From positions 1-64,000 of IMG/VR virus record IMGVR_UViG_3300035687_000002: a stretch of DNA of 64,000 nt. One strand, given 5' to 3'. Each line of letters begins with the position of its first letter. Positions within the stretch are counted from its first letter, which is position 1. The translations under genes and the position numbers were made by a program. This DNA is from a virus. Below the pieces are notes generated by a model. That model had not been told where the DNA came from, searched no databases, and worked only from the letters and a program-made list of their open reading frames with translations. Positions 21,703-51,032 of the stretch are shown here, one piece after another.

Positions 21703-22173
21703 ATGAAATGGGACCAAAACACAGATGAATACGTCAATAACGGTACATCTATAAAAGGATTTGCAGGAGAAAACAGATGGCTAAGTAACTTTTGGCCTTG
21801 TGTTATTGTATTTGAAGACATGGAATTCAAAAACAGTGAGGCAGCCTTTCAGGCAGCTAAGACCAAATTCCTTGTTGAAAGAGAACCTTTCCAAATTATG
21901 GAAGCTGGTAAAGCTAAAAGAGCTGGAAAAGAACTTACTTTAAGACATGATTGGGAAGAAGTCAAATTACAAATAATGTATAACATTCTCAAAGATAAAT
22001 TCTGCAGAAATCCGGAATTAGCAGTTAAACTGCTTGAAACGGGAGATAAATACCTTGAAGAAACAAACTGGTGGAATGACACTTACTGGGGAGTTTGTAG
22101 AGGAGTAGGGCAAAATCAATTAGGTATCATTCTTATGAGAGTAAGAGATGAGCTTAAGCTAAATCAATGTTAA
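21703..22173 (+). CDS. NADAR/YbiA-like N-glycosidase (DUF1768)
   Basis: 156 aa. Family blocks are clear: ENRWLSNFWP, NSEAAFQAAKT, LRHDWEEVKLQIM, KYLEETNWWNDTYWGVC and QNQLGIILMRVRDEL. NADAR proteins remove ADP-ribose from guanine or hydrolyse riboflavin intermediates and pair with ADP-ribosylation systems. Located upstream of the NAD+ salvage-like pair, so it fits an ADP-ribose theme. Confidence 0.88.
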   Translation: MKWDQNTDEYVNNGTSIKGFAGENRWLSNFWPCVIVFEDMEFKNSEAAFQAAKTKFLVEREPFQIMEAGKAKRAGKELTLRHDWEEVKLQIMYNILKDKFCRNPELAVKLLETGDKYLEETNWWNDTYWGVCRGVGQNQLGIILMRVRDELKLNQC

Positions 22174-22174
22174 T

Positions 22175-22204
22175 ATGTTTGAAAGAATAAAATATCCGGA
22201 TTAA
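22175..22204 (+). other. Duplicated start remnant of the PRPP-synthetase-like gene
   Basis: ATG followed by FERIKYPD and TAA. The intact gene at 22845 begins FERIRFPDG. The nine-codon fragment is separated from it by the GIY-YIG gene, so it looks like the original 5' end left behind by the insertion. Confidence 0.7.
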
Positions 22205-22205
22205 A

Positions 22206-22237
22206 TTTGGTGATGTCGGGATAATTTAGTATATTAG
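22206..22237 (+). promoter_or_regulatory. Promoter of GIY-YIG gene with 9-bp inverted repeat
   Basis: TTTG at 22206, 20-base spacer, TATATTAG at 22230. AGTATATTA (22228-22236) and TAATATACT (22246-22254) form a perfect inverted repeat over the -7 box and start codon. Confidence 0.65.
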
Positions 22238-22241
22238 TATT

Positions 22242-22841
22242 ATGGTAATATACTCTATACTAAACAAAATAAACCTGAAAAGGTACATTGGCTCTGCTGT
22301 TAAATTTAACAGACGGAAGAACTATCATATTTCTAAGTTAAGGAATGGAAATCATGACAATTCCTATCTTCAAAACTCATGGAATAAATATGGAGAATCT
22401 AATTTTGAGTTCCTCATTTTAGAGAAGCTTGACACTGAAGAAAATTTAATTCCAAGAGAGCAATGGTGGATAGATAATACTCCTTCTCAGTACAACATCT
22501 GTAAGATTGCAGGTAATTGTGCTGGAAGGAAGCATACAGAAGAAGCAAAAAGAAAAATAGCATTCTATAATACTCATCTTAAAACTTATTCAGAAGAGAC
22601 AAGAAAAAAAATATCTGATAGTAAAAGAGGAGTAAAGAGAGATGTTTCAAAATGGAATAGAAAATATGTACCGAAAAAGGTATATGAATACTCTTCCTCT
22701 AATAAATTTGTTAAAGAATGGAAATCTGTAAAAGATTTTGCAGAATTTTACAAGTTAGCAAAAAGTCATGTTTGGAACTGTGCTAACAAAAATAAACAAT
22801 TAGAGAAATTAAGGGTAATTTTATCATTTATAAAATATTAA
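22242..22841 (+). CDS. GIY-YIG homing endonuclease with NUMOD3
   Basis: 199 aa. VIYSILNKINLKRYIGSA is the GIY-YIG start, followed by the NSWNKYGESNFEF block and CAGRKHTEEAKRKI (NUMOD3), with a C-terminal DNA-binding end. It interrupts the 5' end of the PRPP-synthetase-like gene and has its own promoter. Confidence 0.88.
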   Translation: MVIYSILNKINLKRYIGSAVKFNRRKNYHISKLRNGNHDNSYLQNSWNKYGESNFEFLILEKLDTEENLIPREQWWIDNTPSQYNICKIAGNCAGRKHTEEAKRKIAFYNTHLKTYSEETRKKISDSKRGVKRDVSKWNRKYVPKKVYEYSSSNKFVKEWKSVKDFAEFYKLAKSHVWNCANKNKQLEKLRVILSFIKY

Positions 22842-22844
22842 ATT

Positions 22845-23666
22845 ATGTTTGAAAGGATACGATTTCCTGACGGTCAGATATCTGCCAAATGGGTACAAGG
22901 TGACAATAGTCATGTAATAAGACAAAGACTAAACTCTTATGAGGATTTAATGTTCTTAGCAGCAATAGGAGAAATAGGAAAGAATAAGCATGAAAATTAT
23001 GATTTATTTATTCCTTGTATGTTTGGACAGAGGAGTGATAGAAGATTTGGTCCAGACCAATCTTTTGACTTAAAAATTATTACAGATGTAATTAATAGCT
23101 GTAACTTCTGGAAAGTTGAAGTCTTTGACCCTCACAGTGACGTTACCTTGGCTTTGATTAATAACTCGAAGAAAAGAAGCTCTCTTGAGTTCGTTGTGAA
23201 AGCTGTTGCAGATATACGTCAGAAAATGTGTGATGAACAGCTTTCTCCGGGATTGGATGATATATTACTAGTATCTCCAGATGCAGGAGCTTATAAGAAA
23301 GTTTTTGAATTTGGAGAGAAATTAAATCTCCCAGTTATGGGAGCTATGAAACATCGTGATAAGGACGGAAAAATTACTTTAATGTTCACTCACGATGTAG
23401 AAGGAAAAGATTGTCTGATTGTAGATGATTTATGTGATGGAGGTTACACTTTTGAGTTATTAGGGAAAGCTCTAAGAGAACACAAAGCTCGGAAAGTTTA
23501 TCTCTATGTGAGTCATGGACTTTTCTCTAAAGGATTTATAGAACTTCATAAGATAATTGACCATATTTACTGTACGAATTCTCATCATGATTTGAATACT
23601 TTCGAATTTGGAATTGGAGGAAGTATTCCGGTAACCGATTATGTAACACAATATAAAGTAATATGA
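22845..23666 (+). CDS. PRPP-synthetase-like; candidate ADP-ribose pyrophosphate synthetase (Adps, NARP1)
   Basis: 273 aa. Prs features: FGQRSDRRF, the ribose-phosphate strand VFDPHS, a flexible loop MKHRDKDGK and the PRPP loop CLIVDDLCDGGYTF. In phages, Prs homologues paired with a NAMPT homologue form the NARP1 pathway. There this enzyme pyrophosphorylates ADP-ribose and its partner adds nicotinamide to rebuild NAD+. The partner here is at 25683. Specificity for ADP-ribose rather than ribose-5-phosphate is inference. Confidence 0.78.
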   Translation: MFERIRFPDGQISAKWVQGDNSHVIRQRLNSYEDLMFLAAIGEIGKNKHENYDLFIPCMFGQRSDRRFGPDQSFDLKIITDVINSCNFWKVEVFDPHSDVTLALINNSKKRSSLEFVVKAVADIRQKMCDEQLSPGLDDILLVSPDAGAYKKVFEFGEKLNLPVMGAMKHRDKDGKITLMFTHDVEGKDCLIVDDLCDGGYTFELLGKALREHKARKVYLYVSHGLFSKGFIELHKIIDHIYCTNSHHDLNTFEFGIGGSIPVTDYVTQYKVI

Positions 23667-24088
23667 GTGATAAATATTTAGAACCAACAGCAAACTTTAA
23701 TAGATTATTATCTGAGTATAAAAGATATGGTAGTATTACTGTAGCTTATGATTTTGATGATACCATTCATGACTATCATGGGACTGGTCACACATATCCT
23801 CTGGTAAAGCAACTACTGAAGGATTTGAAATCAATTGATTGTAAACTTGTATGCTGGACAGCTTACAAAGATTTAGGGTATGTTGCAGAATTTCTTGAGA
23901 AAAATGATTTACCTTTTGATGCAATTAATGATGGAGGTATTCCATTACCTTGGGAAAGTAAAAAACCTTTCTTCTCTGCATTACTTGATGACCGTGCAGG
24001 ATTAATTTCCATGTATAACGATTTAAGATTATTAGTTAACACTATAAAACAAGAAAATGAGAGCACAAAAGAAACCAGTAATAATTGA
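23663..24088 (+). CDS. HAD-superfamily hydrolase
   Basis: 141 aa. VAYDFDDTIHDYHG is motif I, LVCWTAYKD motif II and LLDDRAGL motif III, the standard HAD phosphatase order without a large cap. Substrate probably a nucleotide or sugar phosphate, by family. Overlaps the Prs-like gene by four bases. Confidence 0.78.
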   Translation: MSDKYLEPTANFNRLLSEYKRYGSITVAYDFDDTIHDYHGTGHTYPLVKQLLKDLKSIDCKLVCWTAYKDLGYVAEFLEKNDLPFDAINDGGIPLPWESKKPFFSALLDDRAGLISMYNDLRLLVNTIKQENESTKETSNN

Positions 24089-24332
24089 TTACCACATATT
24101 CGATGGTAACATTGATAATGTTGCAGAATTTGCAAAGTCATTCAAGGAGAAATTTAACGACCACTTTACATTTAAAGAAGGTAAAGAAGGACTCGAATTA
24201 TACGTTAAGACTTTAGAAGGAACTTCTTACAATGTTCCTAAAGGTTATGTTATAATTAGAGGAGTCAAAGGAGAATATTATCCTTGTGACCCAGCTATCT
24301 TTGAAGAAACATATGTAAAATTCCTTGGATAA
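24057..24332 (+). CDS. Conserved phage hypothetical protein, 91 aa
   Basis: Starts MRAQKKPVIIDYHIFDG and ends VIIRGVKGEYYPCDPAIFEETY, a pair of blocks typical of a widespread phage protein of unknown function. Overlaps the HAD gene by 32 bases in another frame. Confidence 0.65.
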   Translation: MRAQKKPVIIDYHIFDGNIDNVAEFAKSFKEKFNDHFTFKEGKEGLELYVKTLEGTSYNVPKGYVIIRGVKGEYYPCDPAIFEETYVKFLG

Positions 24333-24336
24333 ACTT

Positions 24337-24801
24337 ATGAAAATATTTACTCCTCCAGATTATCCTCAGCTTAATGGACCCTCACTATTCCTTGGTGGAA
24401 GTATAGAAATGGGGAAAGCTGACAACTGGCAAGCACATTTAATAGGTTTATTTGAAAAATCCAAGAATTATGGAACATGGACTTTCCTTAATCCTAGAAG
24501 AAAAGATTGGGATAGTACATGGAAACAGGATATAAGCAATCCAAGCTTTTATCAGCAAGTAGACTGGGAACTCACTTATCTCGAAAGAGCAACAGCACGA
24601 GTTTTCTACTTTGCCGCTGATACCATTTCACCTATTACTCTTATGGAACTAGGAAAATTTGGCAATTTACCTAATACTTATATTATTTGTAACACAAATT
24701 ATCAAAGAAAGGGAAACGTTGACGTATTTTGCCACAGATATCAAATACCCCAATTGTGGGGACCTTCTCAACTTGTTGAGATTTTACACACAAAAGTTTA
24801 A
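24337..24801 (+). CDS. Nucleoside 2-deoxyribosyltransferase-like protein
   Basis: 154 aa. LFLGGSIEMGKADNW, LNPRRKDWD, WELTYLERA and TISPITLMELGKFG are typical of the second deoxyribosyltransferase-like family. It may cleave or transfer nucleobases on nucleosides or nucleotides. Such folds also occur among ADP-ribose and SLOG-type proteins. ATG 24337 chosen since the upstream TTG overlaps a stop. Confidence 0.75.
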   Translation: MKIFTPPDYPQLNGPSLFLGGSIEMGKADNWQAHLIGLFEKSKNYGTWTFLNPRRKDWDSTWKQDISNPSFYQQVDWELTYLERATARVFYFAADTISPITLMELGKFGNLPNTYIICNTNYQRKGNVDVFCHRYQIPQLWGPSQLVEILHTKV

Positions 24802-24804
24802 ATA

Positions 24805-24843
24805 ATGGACCCAATATTATTAACTGATTATTACAAGACATGA
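24805..24843 (+). other. Duplicated start remnant of the NAMPT-like gene
   Basis: ATG then DPILLTDYYKT and TGA. The intact gene at 25683 begins NPIILTDYYKV. The bases differ at synonymous positions, so this is a diverged remnant, not a recent copy. It lies upstream of an unknown gene and an EndoVII-type HNH gene that separate it from the intact gene. Confidence 0.7.
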
Positions 24844-25160
24844 GAATAATTAAATTTGAAGCTGATACAGAGGAATTGGCAGCAATTATACATTTCTCAG
24901 TTAGAACCCTCGAAAGAGGGTTTTTTGTTCCACATAGTTATATTAAACTTCTTGCACTTATATCACAAGTACAAGAATTCGCAACAACAGAGCAGATATG
25001 CAAAATGGCTCTTGAGAGAAAGATTGTATTCTCTGAACAAGTTGTTAGGAACTATATGGCAACACTCAAAAATTTTGGTATAATAACTAAACCAGCTGAG
25101 AACAAAAGAAGTATAGCTAAACCATATATCTTCAAAAATAAGGATACATTGCAAAAATAA
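24840..25160 (+). CDS. Hypothetical winged-helix-like protein, 106 aa
   Basis: Starts inside the TGA of the remnant. Helical with a possible winged-helix region (TEQICKMALERKIVFSEQVVRNYMATLKNFGII shortened here to its two cores TEQICKMAL and VVRNYMATL). It contains a strong terminator-like hairpin near its start. Probably resident rather than mobile, but it lies inside the interval inserted between remnant and intact NAMPT-like gene. Confidence 0.55.
   Translation: MRIIKFEADTEELAAIIHFSVRTLERGFFVPHSYIKLLALISQVQEFATTEQICKMALERKIVFSEQVVRNYMATLKNFGIITKPAENKRSIAKPYIFKNKDTLQK
24905..24926 (+). terminator. Intragenic terminator-like hairpin
   Basis: AACCCTC, loop GAAA, GAGGGTT, then six T, all inside codons 22-29 of the hypothetical gene. 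It has every feature of an intrinsic terminator. Confidence 0.6.
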
Positions 25161-25162
25161 GA

Positions 25163-25194
25163 TTTGGAAATGTATCCAGAATTTCGTATCTTTA
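25163..25194 (+). promoter_or_regulatory. Promoter of EndoVII-type HNH gene
   Basis: TTTG at 25163, 20-base spacer, TATCTTTA at 25187. A 9-bp perfect inverted repeat GGATACATT (25142-25150) / AATGTATCC (25169-25177) surrounds the -33 box. Confidence 0.65.
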
Positions 25195-25198
25195 TGGT

Positions 25199-25714
25199 AT
25201 GGAAAAAAGAATATGTACAGGTTGTAATCAGGAGAAACCCCTTGATTCAGACCATTTCACCAAGGACAAATATGACAAGTCAGGATTTACATATAGATGT
25301 AAAATCTGTAGAAATGAGACTAGCAGAAAATGGAATCTTAAAAATCCTGATAAGGTCAAAGAAGCCAACCTCTTAAATAGGGACAAAAGGAAGAAATTTT
25401 ATAGTTCTCCTGAAGGAATTGTTTGTTCAAGAAAAGCTCATCTTAAGAGAATGTATGGTATCACTCTTGATGATTTCAACAAGATGTTGAAGAATCAAGG
25501 AGGAAAATGTGCTATATGTAGAGGAACTGAGACTCGTGATAAGCATAAAGTTATGGCCGTTGACCATGACCATAAAACGGGAAAAGTTAGGGCTTTATTA
25601 TGTTTTAAATGTAATTCAGCTTTGGGTAATTTCAACGATGACCCTGAGTTATTAAAAAAGGCACTTAAATATTTAAAAAATTATGAATCCGATAATATTA
25701 ACGGACTATTATAA
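25199..25714 (+). CDS. Endonuclease VII-like HNH homing endonuclease
   Basis: 171 aa. A zinc start (CTGCNQEKPLD, CKICRNE), then the EndoVII core MYGITLDDFNKML, GGKCAICRGTE, AVDHDHKTGKVRALLCFKCN and LGNFNDDPELL. Its 3' end overlaps the start of the NAMPT-like gene by 32 bases, so it has become fused into the 5' end of that gene. Confidence 0.88.
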   Translation: MEKRICTGCNQEKPLDSDHFTKDKYDKSGFTYRCKICRNETSRKWNLKNPDKVKEANLLNRDKRKKFYSSPEGIVCSRKAHLKRMYGITLDDFNKMLKNQGGKCAICRGTETRDKHKVMAVDHDHKTGKVRALLCFKCNSALGNFNDDPELLKKALKYLKNYESDNINGLL

Positions 25715-27236
25715 GGTCGAACATTTTAGGCAATATCCTAAACATACTTCGATGATTTATAGTAATCTTACGGCTCGAAAGAGTAGAATAAAAGGAGTGA
25801 ATTCAATCATATTCTTTGGATTACAGCACTTTCTTCACAAGTATTTACAAGGTAAATTCCAAAAGGAATTCTTTGATACGCCTTGGGAACAAGTAGAAGA
25901 AGAATATAAATTTGCAATTAACACTTCTACAGAACATATTAAGGCTTTACATGAATTAGGATATCTTCCGATTTGTATAAAAGCAGTAGCTGAAGGAACA
26001 AGGGTTCCAATCAGGGTTCCTTGTATGACCATTTGTAACACCAAACCAGAATTTTACTGGCTGACAAACTATCTTGAGACACTCTTGAGTTGTCAACTGT
26101 GGCAGCCAATAACTTCAGCTACCATAGCTGCAGAATACTGGAAAATACTATCTAAATATGCAAAAGAAACTACTGGTTCAGATGCTGGAGTTCAGTGGCA
26201 AGGTCACGATTTTAGCATGCGTGGCATGTCTTCTGTGGAGACAGCTATATTATCAGGAATGGGTCATCTTACGTCCTTTACTGGTACCGACACTATTCCT
26301 GCTATCTATGCTTTGCGTAATTCTTATAAAGCTACTGGTCTTATTGGTGCATCTGTGCCTGCCACCGAACACTCGGTGATGTGCATGGGAACCAAAGATG
26401 ATGAAATTGGTACATTTAAGAATTTACTTGATATATATCCTACTGGTATTCTATCAGTTGTATCTGACACTTGGGATTTGTGGAAAGTTTTAACAGAGTA
26501 TTTACCTGCTTTAAAGGAGCAAATCCTTAGCAGAGATGGTAAACTGGTGATTCGTCCTGACTCTGGAGACCCAGTTGATATTATTTGTGGTACTTCAGAA
26601 CTTGAGGACTTGATAGATAGAATCACTAATGAAAATGGTAGTGCAAGTAGAGTAACTCCTCAGCAGAAAGGTTCTCCAGTCGAAAAAGGTGTAGTTGAGC
26701 TTCTGTGGGATGTTTTCGGAGGTACAATTGTAAAAGGAGCTGATGGTAATGAGTACAAAGTGCTGGATAGCCACATTGGAGCAATCTACGGAGATTCTAT
26801 TACACTCGAAAGGGCTACTCAGATATGCGAACGTCTAAAAGCCAAAGGTTTTGCTTCTACAAACATAGTATTTGGTATTGGTTCTTACACCTACCAGATG
26901 AATACCAGAGATACCTTTGGTTTTGCTGTAAAAGCTACCTATGGTGAACTTACTCATGTAGCTACTGAAGATATGTTTGACCAAGGTGGTCCTTCATTAG
27001 GAGAAACATGGATAGAACCCCGAGAAATCTTCAAAGACCCAATCACTGATGATGGTACCAAAAAGTCCTTAAAGGGTCTTATAAGCATCCAAATGAGCGT
27101 AGAAGGGCAATTAATAGCCAAGGACCAACAAACATGGGTACAAGAGGCTACAGGTTACCTTCAAACCGTCTATCTGGATGGTAAAACCACCAAAGAATAC
27201 ACTTTGGAGGAAATTCGTAAACGTATAAAACAATAA
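25683..27236 (+). CDS. Nicotinamide phosphoribosyltransferase-like; candidate Namat (NARP1)
   Basis: 517 aa with NAMPT blocks throughout: ILTDYYKVEHF, YSNLTARKS, HDFSMRGMSS, FTGTDTIPA, PATEHSVMC (catalytic His), VSDTWDLWKV, VIRPDSGDP, GAIYGDSIT and FGIGSYTYQ. NAMPT joins nicotinamide to PRPP. In NARP1 the phage homologue joins nicotinamide to ADP-ribose pyrophosphate to give NAD+ in one step, after NAD+-depleting defences. The Prs-like partner is 2 kb upstream. Assignment as Namat rather than NAMPT rests on this pairing. Confidence 0.9.
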   Translation: MNPIILTDYYKVEHFRQYPKHTSMIYSNLTARKSRIKGVNSIIFFGLQHFLHKYLQGKFQKEFFDTPWEQVEEEYKFAINTSTEHIKALHELGYLPICIKAVAEGTRVPIRVPCMTICNTKPEFYWLTNYLETLLSCQLWQPITSATIAAEYWKILSKYAKETTGSDAGVQWQGHDFSMRGMSSVETAILSGMGHLTSFTGTDTIPAIYALRNSYKATGLIGASVPATEHSVMCMGTKDDEIGTFKNLLDIYPTGILSVVSDTWDLWKVLTEYLPALKEQILSRDGKLVIRPDSGDPVDIICGTSELEDLIDRITNENGSASRVTPQQKGSPVEKGVVELLWDVFGGTIVKGADGNEYKVLDSHIGAIYGDSITLERATQICERLKAKGFASTNIVFGIGSYTYQMNTRDTFGFAVKATYGELTHVATEDMFDQGGPSLGETWIEPREIFKDPITDDGTKKSLKGLISIQMSVEGQLIAKDQQTWVQEATGYLQTVYLDGKTTKEYTLEEIRKRIKQ

Positions 27237-50243: not shown

Positions 50244-50274
50244 TTTGGTAATTTGACCAAAATGTGTATCTTTA
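50244..50274 (+). promoter_or_regulatory. Promoter of EndoVII-type gene with 7-bp inverted repeat
   Basis: TTTG at 50244, 19-base spacer, TATCTTTA at 50267. TGTGTAT (50263-50269) / ATACACA (50283-50289) brackets the -7 box. A CCCTTCGGGG hairpin lies just upstream. Confidence 0.65.
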
Positions 50275-50292
50275 ATAAAAACATACACATAT

Positions 50293-50730
50293 ATGGAAGA
50301 TTTAAAAACATGTACAAAATGTGGTGTACCAAAACCACTTAGTGAATTTTATAAAGATAAGCAGAAGAAAGATGGCTTAAGACCTGACTGCAGAGTTTGT
50401 AACACAAAACAATGTGTCAAACGTGCTAAAATTAATAGAACTTCAAGGAATTGGAATAGTCTGAAACACAAAACAGGCATTTCAAAAAACACCTATCAGA
50501 TTCTACTTGATGAACAACAAGGTAAATGTGCTATTTGTGGGAAAACTATTGGAGAAAATGGAAGAAATTTATCCATAGACCATTGTCATAATAGCAAAAT
50601 TATCAGAGGTTTACTATGCACTAAATGCAATTTTGGAATAGGCTATTTTGATGATAGAAAGGACCTACTTACAAAAGCTATTCACTATTTAGATAACAAC
50701 CTTTCAACAAAAAATATAATACACAAATGA
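50293..50730 (+). CDS. Endonuclease VII-like HNH homing endonuclease
   Basis: 145 aa. CTKCGVPKPLSEFYKDK and CRVCNTKQC zinc pairs, then KTGISKNTYQILL, GKCAICGK, SIDHCHNSKIIRGLLC and IGYFDDRKDLL, as in phage EndoVII-type HNH genes. It overlaps the next gene by four bases. Confidence 0.9.
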   Translation: MEDLKTCTKCGVPKPLSEFYKDKQKKDGLRPDCRVCNTKQCVKRAKINRTSRNWNSLKHKTGISKNTYQILLDEQQGKCAICGKTIGENGRNLSIDHCHNSKIIRGLLCTKCNFGIGYFDDRKDLLTKAIHYLDNNLSTKNIIHK

Positions 50731-51032
50731 GTTTAAAAATTGTTCACATATCAGACACTCATGGACCAGCATTCGGAATCTTAGATATGGTTGACGCTGC
50801 AAACAGAACTGCTTGGCATAAAGATGGACATGTCGGATGTGAAGACTTATTTGAAGTAATCAAAAAGAGGCTTACAAGTCTTAAACTTCATTGTTCTGGT
50901 CACATTCATGACAATTTTGGAGTTCATCTTAAAAGCGTATCTAATAGCAGAAGAGTAATGTTCTCTAATGGAGCAGTTCTGACGAATGATTATACTCAAT
51001 TAATAACCAAACCTTTAATAATAGAAATATGA
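50727..51032 (+). CDS. Internally shortened calcineurin-like phosphoesterase
   Basis: 101 aa. The first motif KIVHISDTHG and the last HCSGHIHDNFG of a metallophosphoesterase are present, but the middle GDxx and GNHD motifs are missing. Normal proteins of this family exceed 180 aa. It lies directly after a homing endonuclease gene, so a deletion during insertion is likely. Probably inactive. Confidence 0.6.
   Translation: MSLKIVHISDTHGPAFGILDMVDAANRTAWHKDGHVGCEDLFEVIKKRLTSLKLHCSGHIHDNFGVHLKSVSNSRRVMFSNGAVLTNDYTQLITKPLIIEI

Follow-up and report, generated by a model that had tools for sequence, protein, structure and literature searches.

In the analysed window, which comprises positions 1 to 64,000 of the 146,724-base virus record IMGVR_UViG_3300035687_000002, two genes of NAD+ synthesis, those for a Prs-like ribose-phosphate pyrophosphokinase and for nicotinamide phosphoribosyltransferase (NAMPT), are each preceded by a short stub of their own coding start, with a predicted homing endonuclease gene standing between the stub and the intact gene. 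Considering the organization of these two loci and of similar ones in unrelated phages, including phage T4, the footprint has very probably arisen by invasion of a gene start by an endonuclease gene, accompanied by repair that copied in the 5' end of the donor's target gene and left the resident start behind as a stub.

The Prs stub was recognized by direct reading of the sequence at 22175-22204 (plus strand, as are all the genes, gene starts and the promoter-like element described below for the two loci). It consists of nine codons and TAA (ATG TTT GAA AGA ATA AAA TAT CCG GAT TAA, i.e., MFERIKYPD and a stop) and is separated by 1 nt from the stop of the NADAR gene. It is followed by a predicted GIY-YIG homing endonuclease gene with a NUMOD3 motif (22242-22841), the product of which is a relative of the I-TevI catalytic domain: the GIY-YIG domain was found above cut-off (PF01541, 2.2e-9), the alignment to the I-TevI domain in PDB entry 1mk0 reached 1.9e-11, and the protein matched phrog_314 (homing endonuclease). 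NUMOD3 (PF07460, also above cut-off) is a modular DNA-binding motif located after the catalytic domain. The endonuclease stop lies 3 nt upstream of the re-supplied Prs start MFERIRFPD (22845-22871), of which 21 of 27 nt are identical to the stub and 3 of 6 shared codons differ synonymously. The intact Prs-like gene beginning here (22845-23666, 273 aa; phrog_619, 4.4e-57; PF14572/PF00156) starts with MFERIRFPDGQ, the junction being located directly after PD of PDGQ. The remnant of nine codons upstream of the GIY-YIG gene and the intact gene from 22845, as given in the preliminary description of the window, agree with our reading.

At the second locus, the stop of a nucleoside deoxyribosyltransferase-like gene (24337-24801; PF15891, 2.3e-26) lies 3 nt ahead of the NAMPT stub, MDPILLTDYYKT with a stop codon (24805-24843; 12 codons counted from ATG, and TGA; profile score 26.5). 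As described earlier, a remnant of twelve codons at 24805 precedes two genes and the intact NAMPT gene from 25683; the nature of these two genes can now be specified in part. The first, an open reading frame (ORF) of 106 aa (24840-25160), revealed no recognised domain and no convincing match in domain searches; its ATG overlaps the stub stop (ATGA), an arrangement that might permit translation coupled to the former NAMPT start. The second (25199-25714) is a predicted EndoVII-motif endonuclease gene of the F-CphI/DHHRN type: PF02945 (1.3e-26) spans residues 81-161 of 171, both Hpy99I (5e-9) and EndoVII align to it, and the D-H-H-R-N residues were read near its C-terminus. Its 3' end overlaps by 32 nt the re-supplied NAMPT start MNPIILTDYYK (25683-25715), which is identical to the stub in 26 of 33 nt, with 4 of 8 shared codons differing synonymously. 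The intact NAMPT of 517 aa (25683-27236; PF04095, 3e-37; PF18127, 9e-13) begins with MNPIILTDYYKV (also read as MNPIILTDYYKVEHF). Both loci belong to a cluster of NAD+/ADP-ribose genes (21703-27236) made up of NADAR, Prs, HAD-like, deoxyribosyltransferase-like and NAMPT genes, the endonuclease insertions affecting two of them.

A scan of all fetched loci (approximately 3 Mb) with a profile of NAMPT starts yielded scores of 26.5-37.1 for the NAMPT stubs, the best unrelated match outside gene starts being 17.8. A broader search for gene starts repeated at distances of up to 3 kb returned the window stubs, that of locus L047, and a few paralogues and noise. In a two-flank peptide scan of the window, Prs scored 43 and NAMPT 57, against a null of 150 mismatched flank pairs with a median of 30 and a highest score of 54. 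Since the Prs value falls inside the null range, what speaks for this stub is the location of both copies at a start codon and not the score. Pattern scans of viral contigs for window-like starts gave nothing useful, and no relatives of Prs were recovered by a scan for them. The comparison with uninterrupted relatives proposed in the preliminary description gave the result expected there: stubs are absent in L001, L064 and PTm1 and, for the T4 case, in phage G28. In L001, the closest relative compared (its NAMPT is 70% identical to that of the window), the Prs, HAD and NAMPT genes are contiguous, with neither endonuclease nor stub.

The same structure recurs at NAMPT starts of other phages. 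In Leptolyngbya phage Lbo-JY46, the stub MSFKINSLYLADGYKK, closed by a stop, is followed by an EndoVII-type gene and by NAMPT beginning with MSFKINSLYWVDGYKT; the endonuclease is 51% identical to that of the window, occupies the same site and likewise overlaps the new NAMPT start. In L047, the stub MNPLFLTDGY precedes a GIY-YIG gene and NAMPT beginning with MNPLFLTDGYKC. In L073, an EndoVII-type gene (its product being 42% identical to the endonuclease of the window and 55% to that of Lbo-JY46) stands immediately ahead of NAMPT, and the stub has probably decayed. The EndoVII-type family occupies the NAMPT start of the window, Lbo-JY46 and L073 and is absent in L001, L064 and PTm1; a clear NAMPT stub accompanies it in the window and Lbo-JY46. 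Stubs in relatives devoid of the endonuclease gene, which in the preliminary description were to speak against insertion, were encountered solely in L060, where a NAMPT stub is followed by a 40-nt spacer. This stub and spacer align with the sequence that precedes the endonuclease gene at this junction in L073 (score 61 vs a maximum of 58 in 1000 shuffles), which suggests that the L060 element lost its endonuclease secondarily. With their modest statistics, L073 and L060 suggest decayed cases of the footprint. In all four readable NAMPT stubs (window, Lbo-JY46, L047, L060) the junction lies within TAY-AAR-ACN codons.

Among the other genes with this footprint is nrdG of phage T4. The product of mobC opens with MNYDRIY, as does NrdG, and where mobC ends, a complete nrdG begins that again encodes these seven residues. 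The two-flank score of 40 is inside the null, and the case is convincing owing to both copies being at start codons and to the empty site in a relative: in phage G28, nrdD runs directly into nrdG with no interruption, the old nrdG start being exactly at the empty site. Compared in 30-nt windows, T4 and G28 are 90-100% identical through nrdD as far as the former nrdG start; past mobC, identity falls to 37-93% over the initial 300 nt of nrdG and then returns to 97-100%. This indicates that mobC was accompanied by the 5' portion of another nrdG allele. None of the other eleven free-standing endonuclease genes of T4 displayed a convincing flank duplication, mobD reaching 40 solely via stop-containing peptides.

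Two separate assemblies, L091 and L092, contain a 46-codon endolysin stub, a GIY-YIG gene and an intact endolysin gene with a different N-terminus, the junction preceding AHETGG. In comparison with the uninterrupted Flavobacterium phage immuto, the L091 stub is identical at 32 of 43 positions and the gene body at 101 of 161, and the new start at only 21 of 43. L112 represents a 3' mirror, in which a terminase gene with a new C-terminus is followed by a GIY-YIG gene and by the old C-terminus as a stub; the GC content is 54% in the terminase body, 52% in the stub, 33% in the new C-terminus and 41% in the endonuclease gene. In roughly 70 GIY-YIG loci chosen irrespective of this footprint, it was encountered in 2 independent cases. 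Between L060 and L064, identity is 0.894 in the body, 0.848 in the stub and 0.733 in the new start. Flank co-conversion is thus clear in T4 mobC/nrdG and supported in L112 and L091, the relatives of the window being too distant to show it. As judged by these comparisons of identity and of GC content, T4, L112, L091 and also L060 show a new end of foreign origin; in the window itself the remnant and the new end are seen, and the donor origin of its new starts is suggested by the sister cases, its nearest NAMPT relative being 70% identical.

The synonymous differences between stubs and new starts, regarded in the preliminary description as recoding, do exist: they affect 46 of 85 shared codons (0.54). 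This is close to the level between NAMPT starts of unrelated phages (0.495), so selected recoding is not needed to account for them, and the new start is most readily understood as the allele of a donor phage, co-converted with the endonuclease gene. The incoming homologous allele measures approximately 300 bp in T4 nrdG, 20 codons in L060 and 45 codons in L091. The earlier proposal that the endonuclease brings the start is supported for insertions inside 5' coding ends, where the stub is resident and the functional start was introduced along with the endonuclease (T4/G28, L091/immuto, L112, L060/L064, and the window by likeness); the idea of a short purpose-made mimic is not supported in that wording, the homologous allele having contributed a more extended segment in T4, L060 and L091.

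An alternative is a dedicated rescue cassette, in which a short piece of the target start is a permanent part of the endonuclease gene and its synonymous recoding is selected. The cassette would preserve expression, avoid self-cutting and prevent recombination between the stub and the new start, and would be the equivalent in nature of engineered drives with a recoded rescue. This explanation accords with the physical overlap of the endonuclease ORF and the new start in the window and Lbo-JY46, with the longest identical stretch between stub and new start being just 5-14 nt, and with the tracts of L060 and L091 stopping soon past the junction. We nevertheless consider it unlikely, because synonymous differences are about as frequent between unrelated alleles, the T4 tract extends 300 nt into nrdG, and the new ends contain amino-acid changes besides the synonymous ones. 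Somewhat less doubtful in our view, though still rather questionable, is the broader formulation that some endonuclease genes of phages are self-contained home-and-rescue cassettes, in which an endonuclease and a re-supplied, cleavage-resistant gene end are maintained by selection as one mobile unit. If true, such cassettes would constitute one more way of harmless residence in important coding sequence, beside introns, inteins and intergenic sites.

A different function of the stub, as a leader peptide or as an exon of a self-splicing intron, might be considered in view of the ATGA overlap between the NAMPT stub stop and the next ORF, which allows for translational coupling, and of the T4 stub being the N-terminus of the endonuclease itself. 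It is very improbable: an Rfam scan of the window region up to E=5 gave no group I or group II intron and no other intron family around the endonuclease genes, the downstream target ORFs are intact and have complete starts of their own, the stub appears to decay in L073, and the spacing varies from case to case. If the target gene had been duplicated in tandem before an endonuclease gene inserted and the first copy decayed, similar starts would likewise flank the insert in the same orientation. This course of events is hardly credible, since the first copy comprises just 7-46 codons in every clear 5' case with the junctions at one site, the stub and the new end are different alleles in L112, L091, L060 and T4, and uninterrupted relatives possess a single copy. 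An assembly artefact or chance peptide similarity, which might be suspected given that the window derives from a metagenomic virus collection record, can practically be dismissed, the scores being far above background and the same structure being present in the deposited isolate genome of Lbo-JY46, in the two assemblies L091 and L092 and in T4.

Under the preferred reading, i.e., invasion with donor-end repair, two unrelated homing endonuclease genes would have invaded conserved motifs within the first dozen codons of their targets, PD|GQ in Prs and D-x-Y-K-T in NAMPT. The cut would be repaired with another, already invaded phage as the template; this repair would place the donor's own 5' end of the target gene downstream of the endonuclease gene, with the resident start persisting ahead of it as a stub. 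The target gene would then be expressed from the donor-derived start, directly after the endonuclease ORF or overlapping it. Once present, the stub could act as a left homology arm in ordinary homing. The new start, being a divergent allele, probably lacks the cleavage site, and its likeness to the stub is probably too small for easy loss of the insert by repeat recombination. For the window we infer cleavage at the stub junction, the same donor-end repair and resistance of the new start to cleavage. Conserved target motifs would be expected for endonucleases that need the same gene in diverse phages, and insertion near a gene end would keep the re-supplied piece short.

Several points weigh against this reading. 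The window has no close relative among the genomes compared (nearest NAMPT 70%), and the conversion tract is not mappable there; a stub of the window by itself is too short to tell which copy is the older; and the first left-side join in each lineage is unexplained by the model. An HNH gene is also located at this NAMPT boundary in Rhodococcus phage Weasels2, where the stub is not significant (18 of 1000 shuffles reach its score). In the T4-like Escherichia phage F2, SegH occupies the nrdD/nrdG boundary with no stub, and hence stub formation is not obligatory but one outcome of homing among others.

In F2 (L357, 890-1840), the nrdD 3' end and the first nrdG codons are both diverged around SegH, and the locus looks like a two-sided co-conversion without a stub. 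The Weasels2 gene (L174, 3421-4005) lies between Prs and NAMPT, is absent in phage Peregrin, and has a possible decayed stub.

The nearest described precedent is that of fungal mitochondrial mobile ORFs with foreign C-termini (PMC3630166): the homing endonuclease genes in Allomyces atp6 and in Glomus atp6, atp9, cox2 and nad3 replace gene C-termini and leave native remnants. As in our cases, the endonuclease gene is located near a gene end, a foreign copy of the end is brought in and the native end becomes a remnant, donor and native ends being far apart in DNA and little in protein. In contrast, those elements are mitochondrial and affect 3' ends; the present ones are from phages, affect mostly 5' ends (L112 being the 3' case) and belong partly to other endonuclease families. 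Free-standing endonucleases of T4, their co-conversion and translational coupling have been reviewed (PMC2988022). In the portion of that review available to us, the T-even Seg and Mob genes resemble our cases as free-standing GIY-YIG or HNH genes between phage genes, with operon expression and flank co-conversion, but are described as intergenic insertions; mobC is placed between nrdG and nrdD with its target unknown, and that portion makes no mention of a duplicated nrdG start. The F-CphI/DHHRN family shares with the NAMPT-associated gene of the window the EndoVII motif near the C-terminus (VDHDHKTGKVRALLCFKCN) and a phage-encoded, free-standing character, while F-CphI is tied to a psbA intron and the window gene to NAMPT starts (PMC6083498). 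The synthetic TARE and cleave-and-rescue drives likewise place a nuclease element inside an important gene together with an uncut version of the target part; they are, however, engineered, CRISPR-based and not intended to self-copy by homing (PMC7046741). No report of the footprint in phages was found in the literature, the search having left out Sandegren et al. (2005; SegH/Hef, mobC), so that an earlier description of the T4 case may exist.

The footprint implies that an endonuclease gene can occupy conserved coding sequence without an intron, the insertion supplying the gene end that it destroys. It is easily scanned for and points to the target motif of the endonuclease straight from the genome, and its presence in T4 makes cleavage and homing testable in laboratory strains. 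Moreover, genes next to endonuclease genes may have starts of foreign origin, with consequences for start calls and phylogenetic trees.

Other endonuclease genes of the window phage (36040, 39083, 50293, 55502, 58417) revealed no convincing flank duplication. Of the candidates in other genomes, L132 and L133 had two-flank scores within the null, and the L141 match (3512 and 4869, flanking a GIY-YIG gene) is a repeated group I-intron-like core and not a gene end. In Klebsiella phage BUCT541 (L348, 1940-2470), an EndoVII-type gene follows a cytosine methylase gene and precedes a second DNA methylase-like C-terminal peptide, STQVAAEFIKAF; the peptide is suggestive of a 3' case, but its score of 39 is within the null and not significant.

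A weak relative of the 106-aa ORF is encoded elsewhere in the same phage (record positions 145334-145699, minus strand). Between this ORF and the EndoVII-type gene, 4 nt ahead of the latter, a promoter-like element TTTG-N20-TATCTTTA (25163-25194), which we take to be of the Bacteroidota type, was found; such elements are only mildly over-represented, with 10 matches in the window vs 6 expected. A similar site (50244-50274) is located ahead of a second EndoVII-type gene (50293-50730), which is 32% identical to the first and at which no stub was found. The region behind it (50727-51032) looks like a shortened metallophosphoesterase gene.

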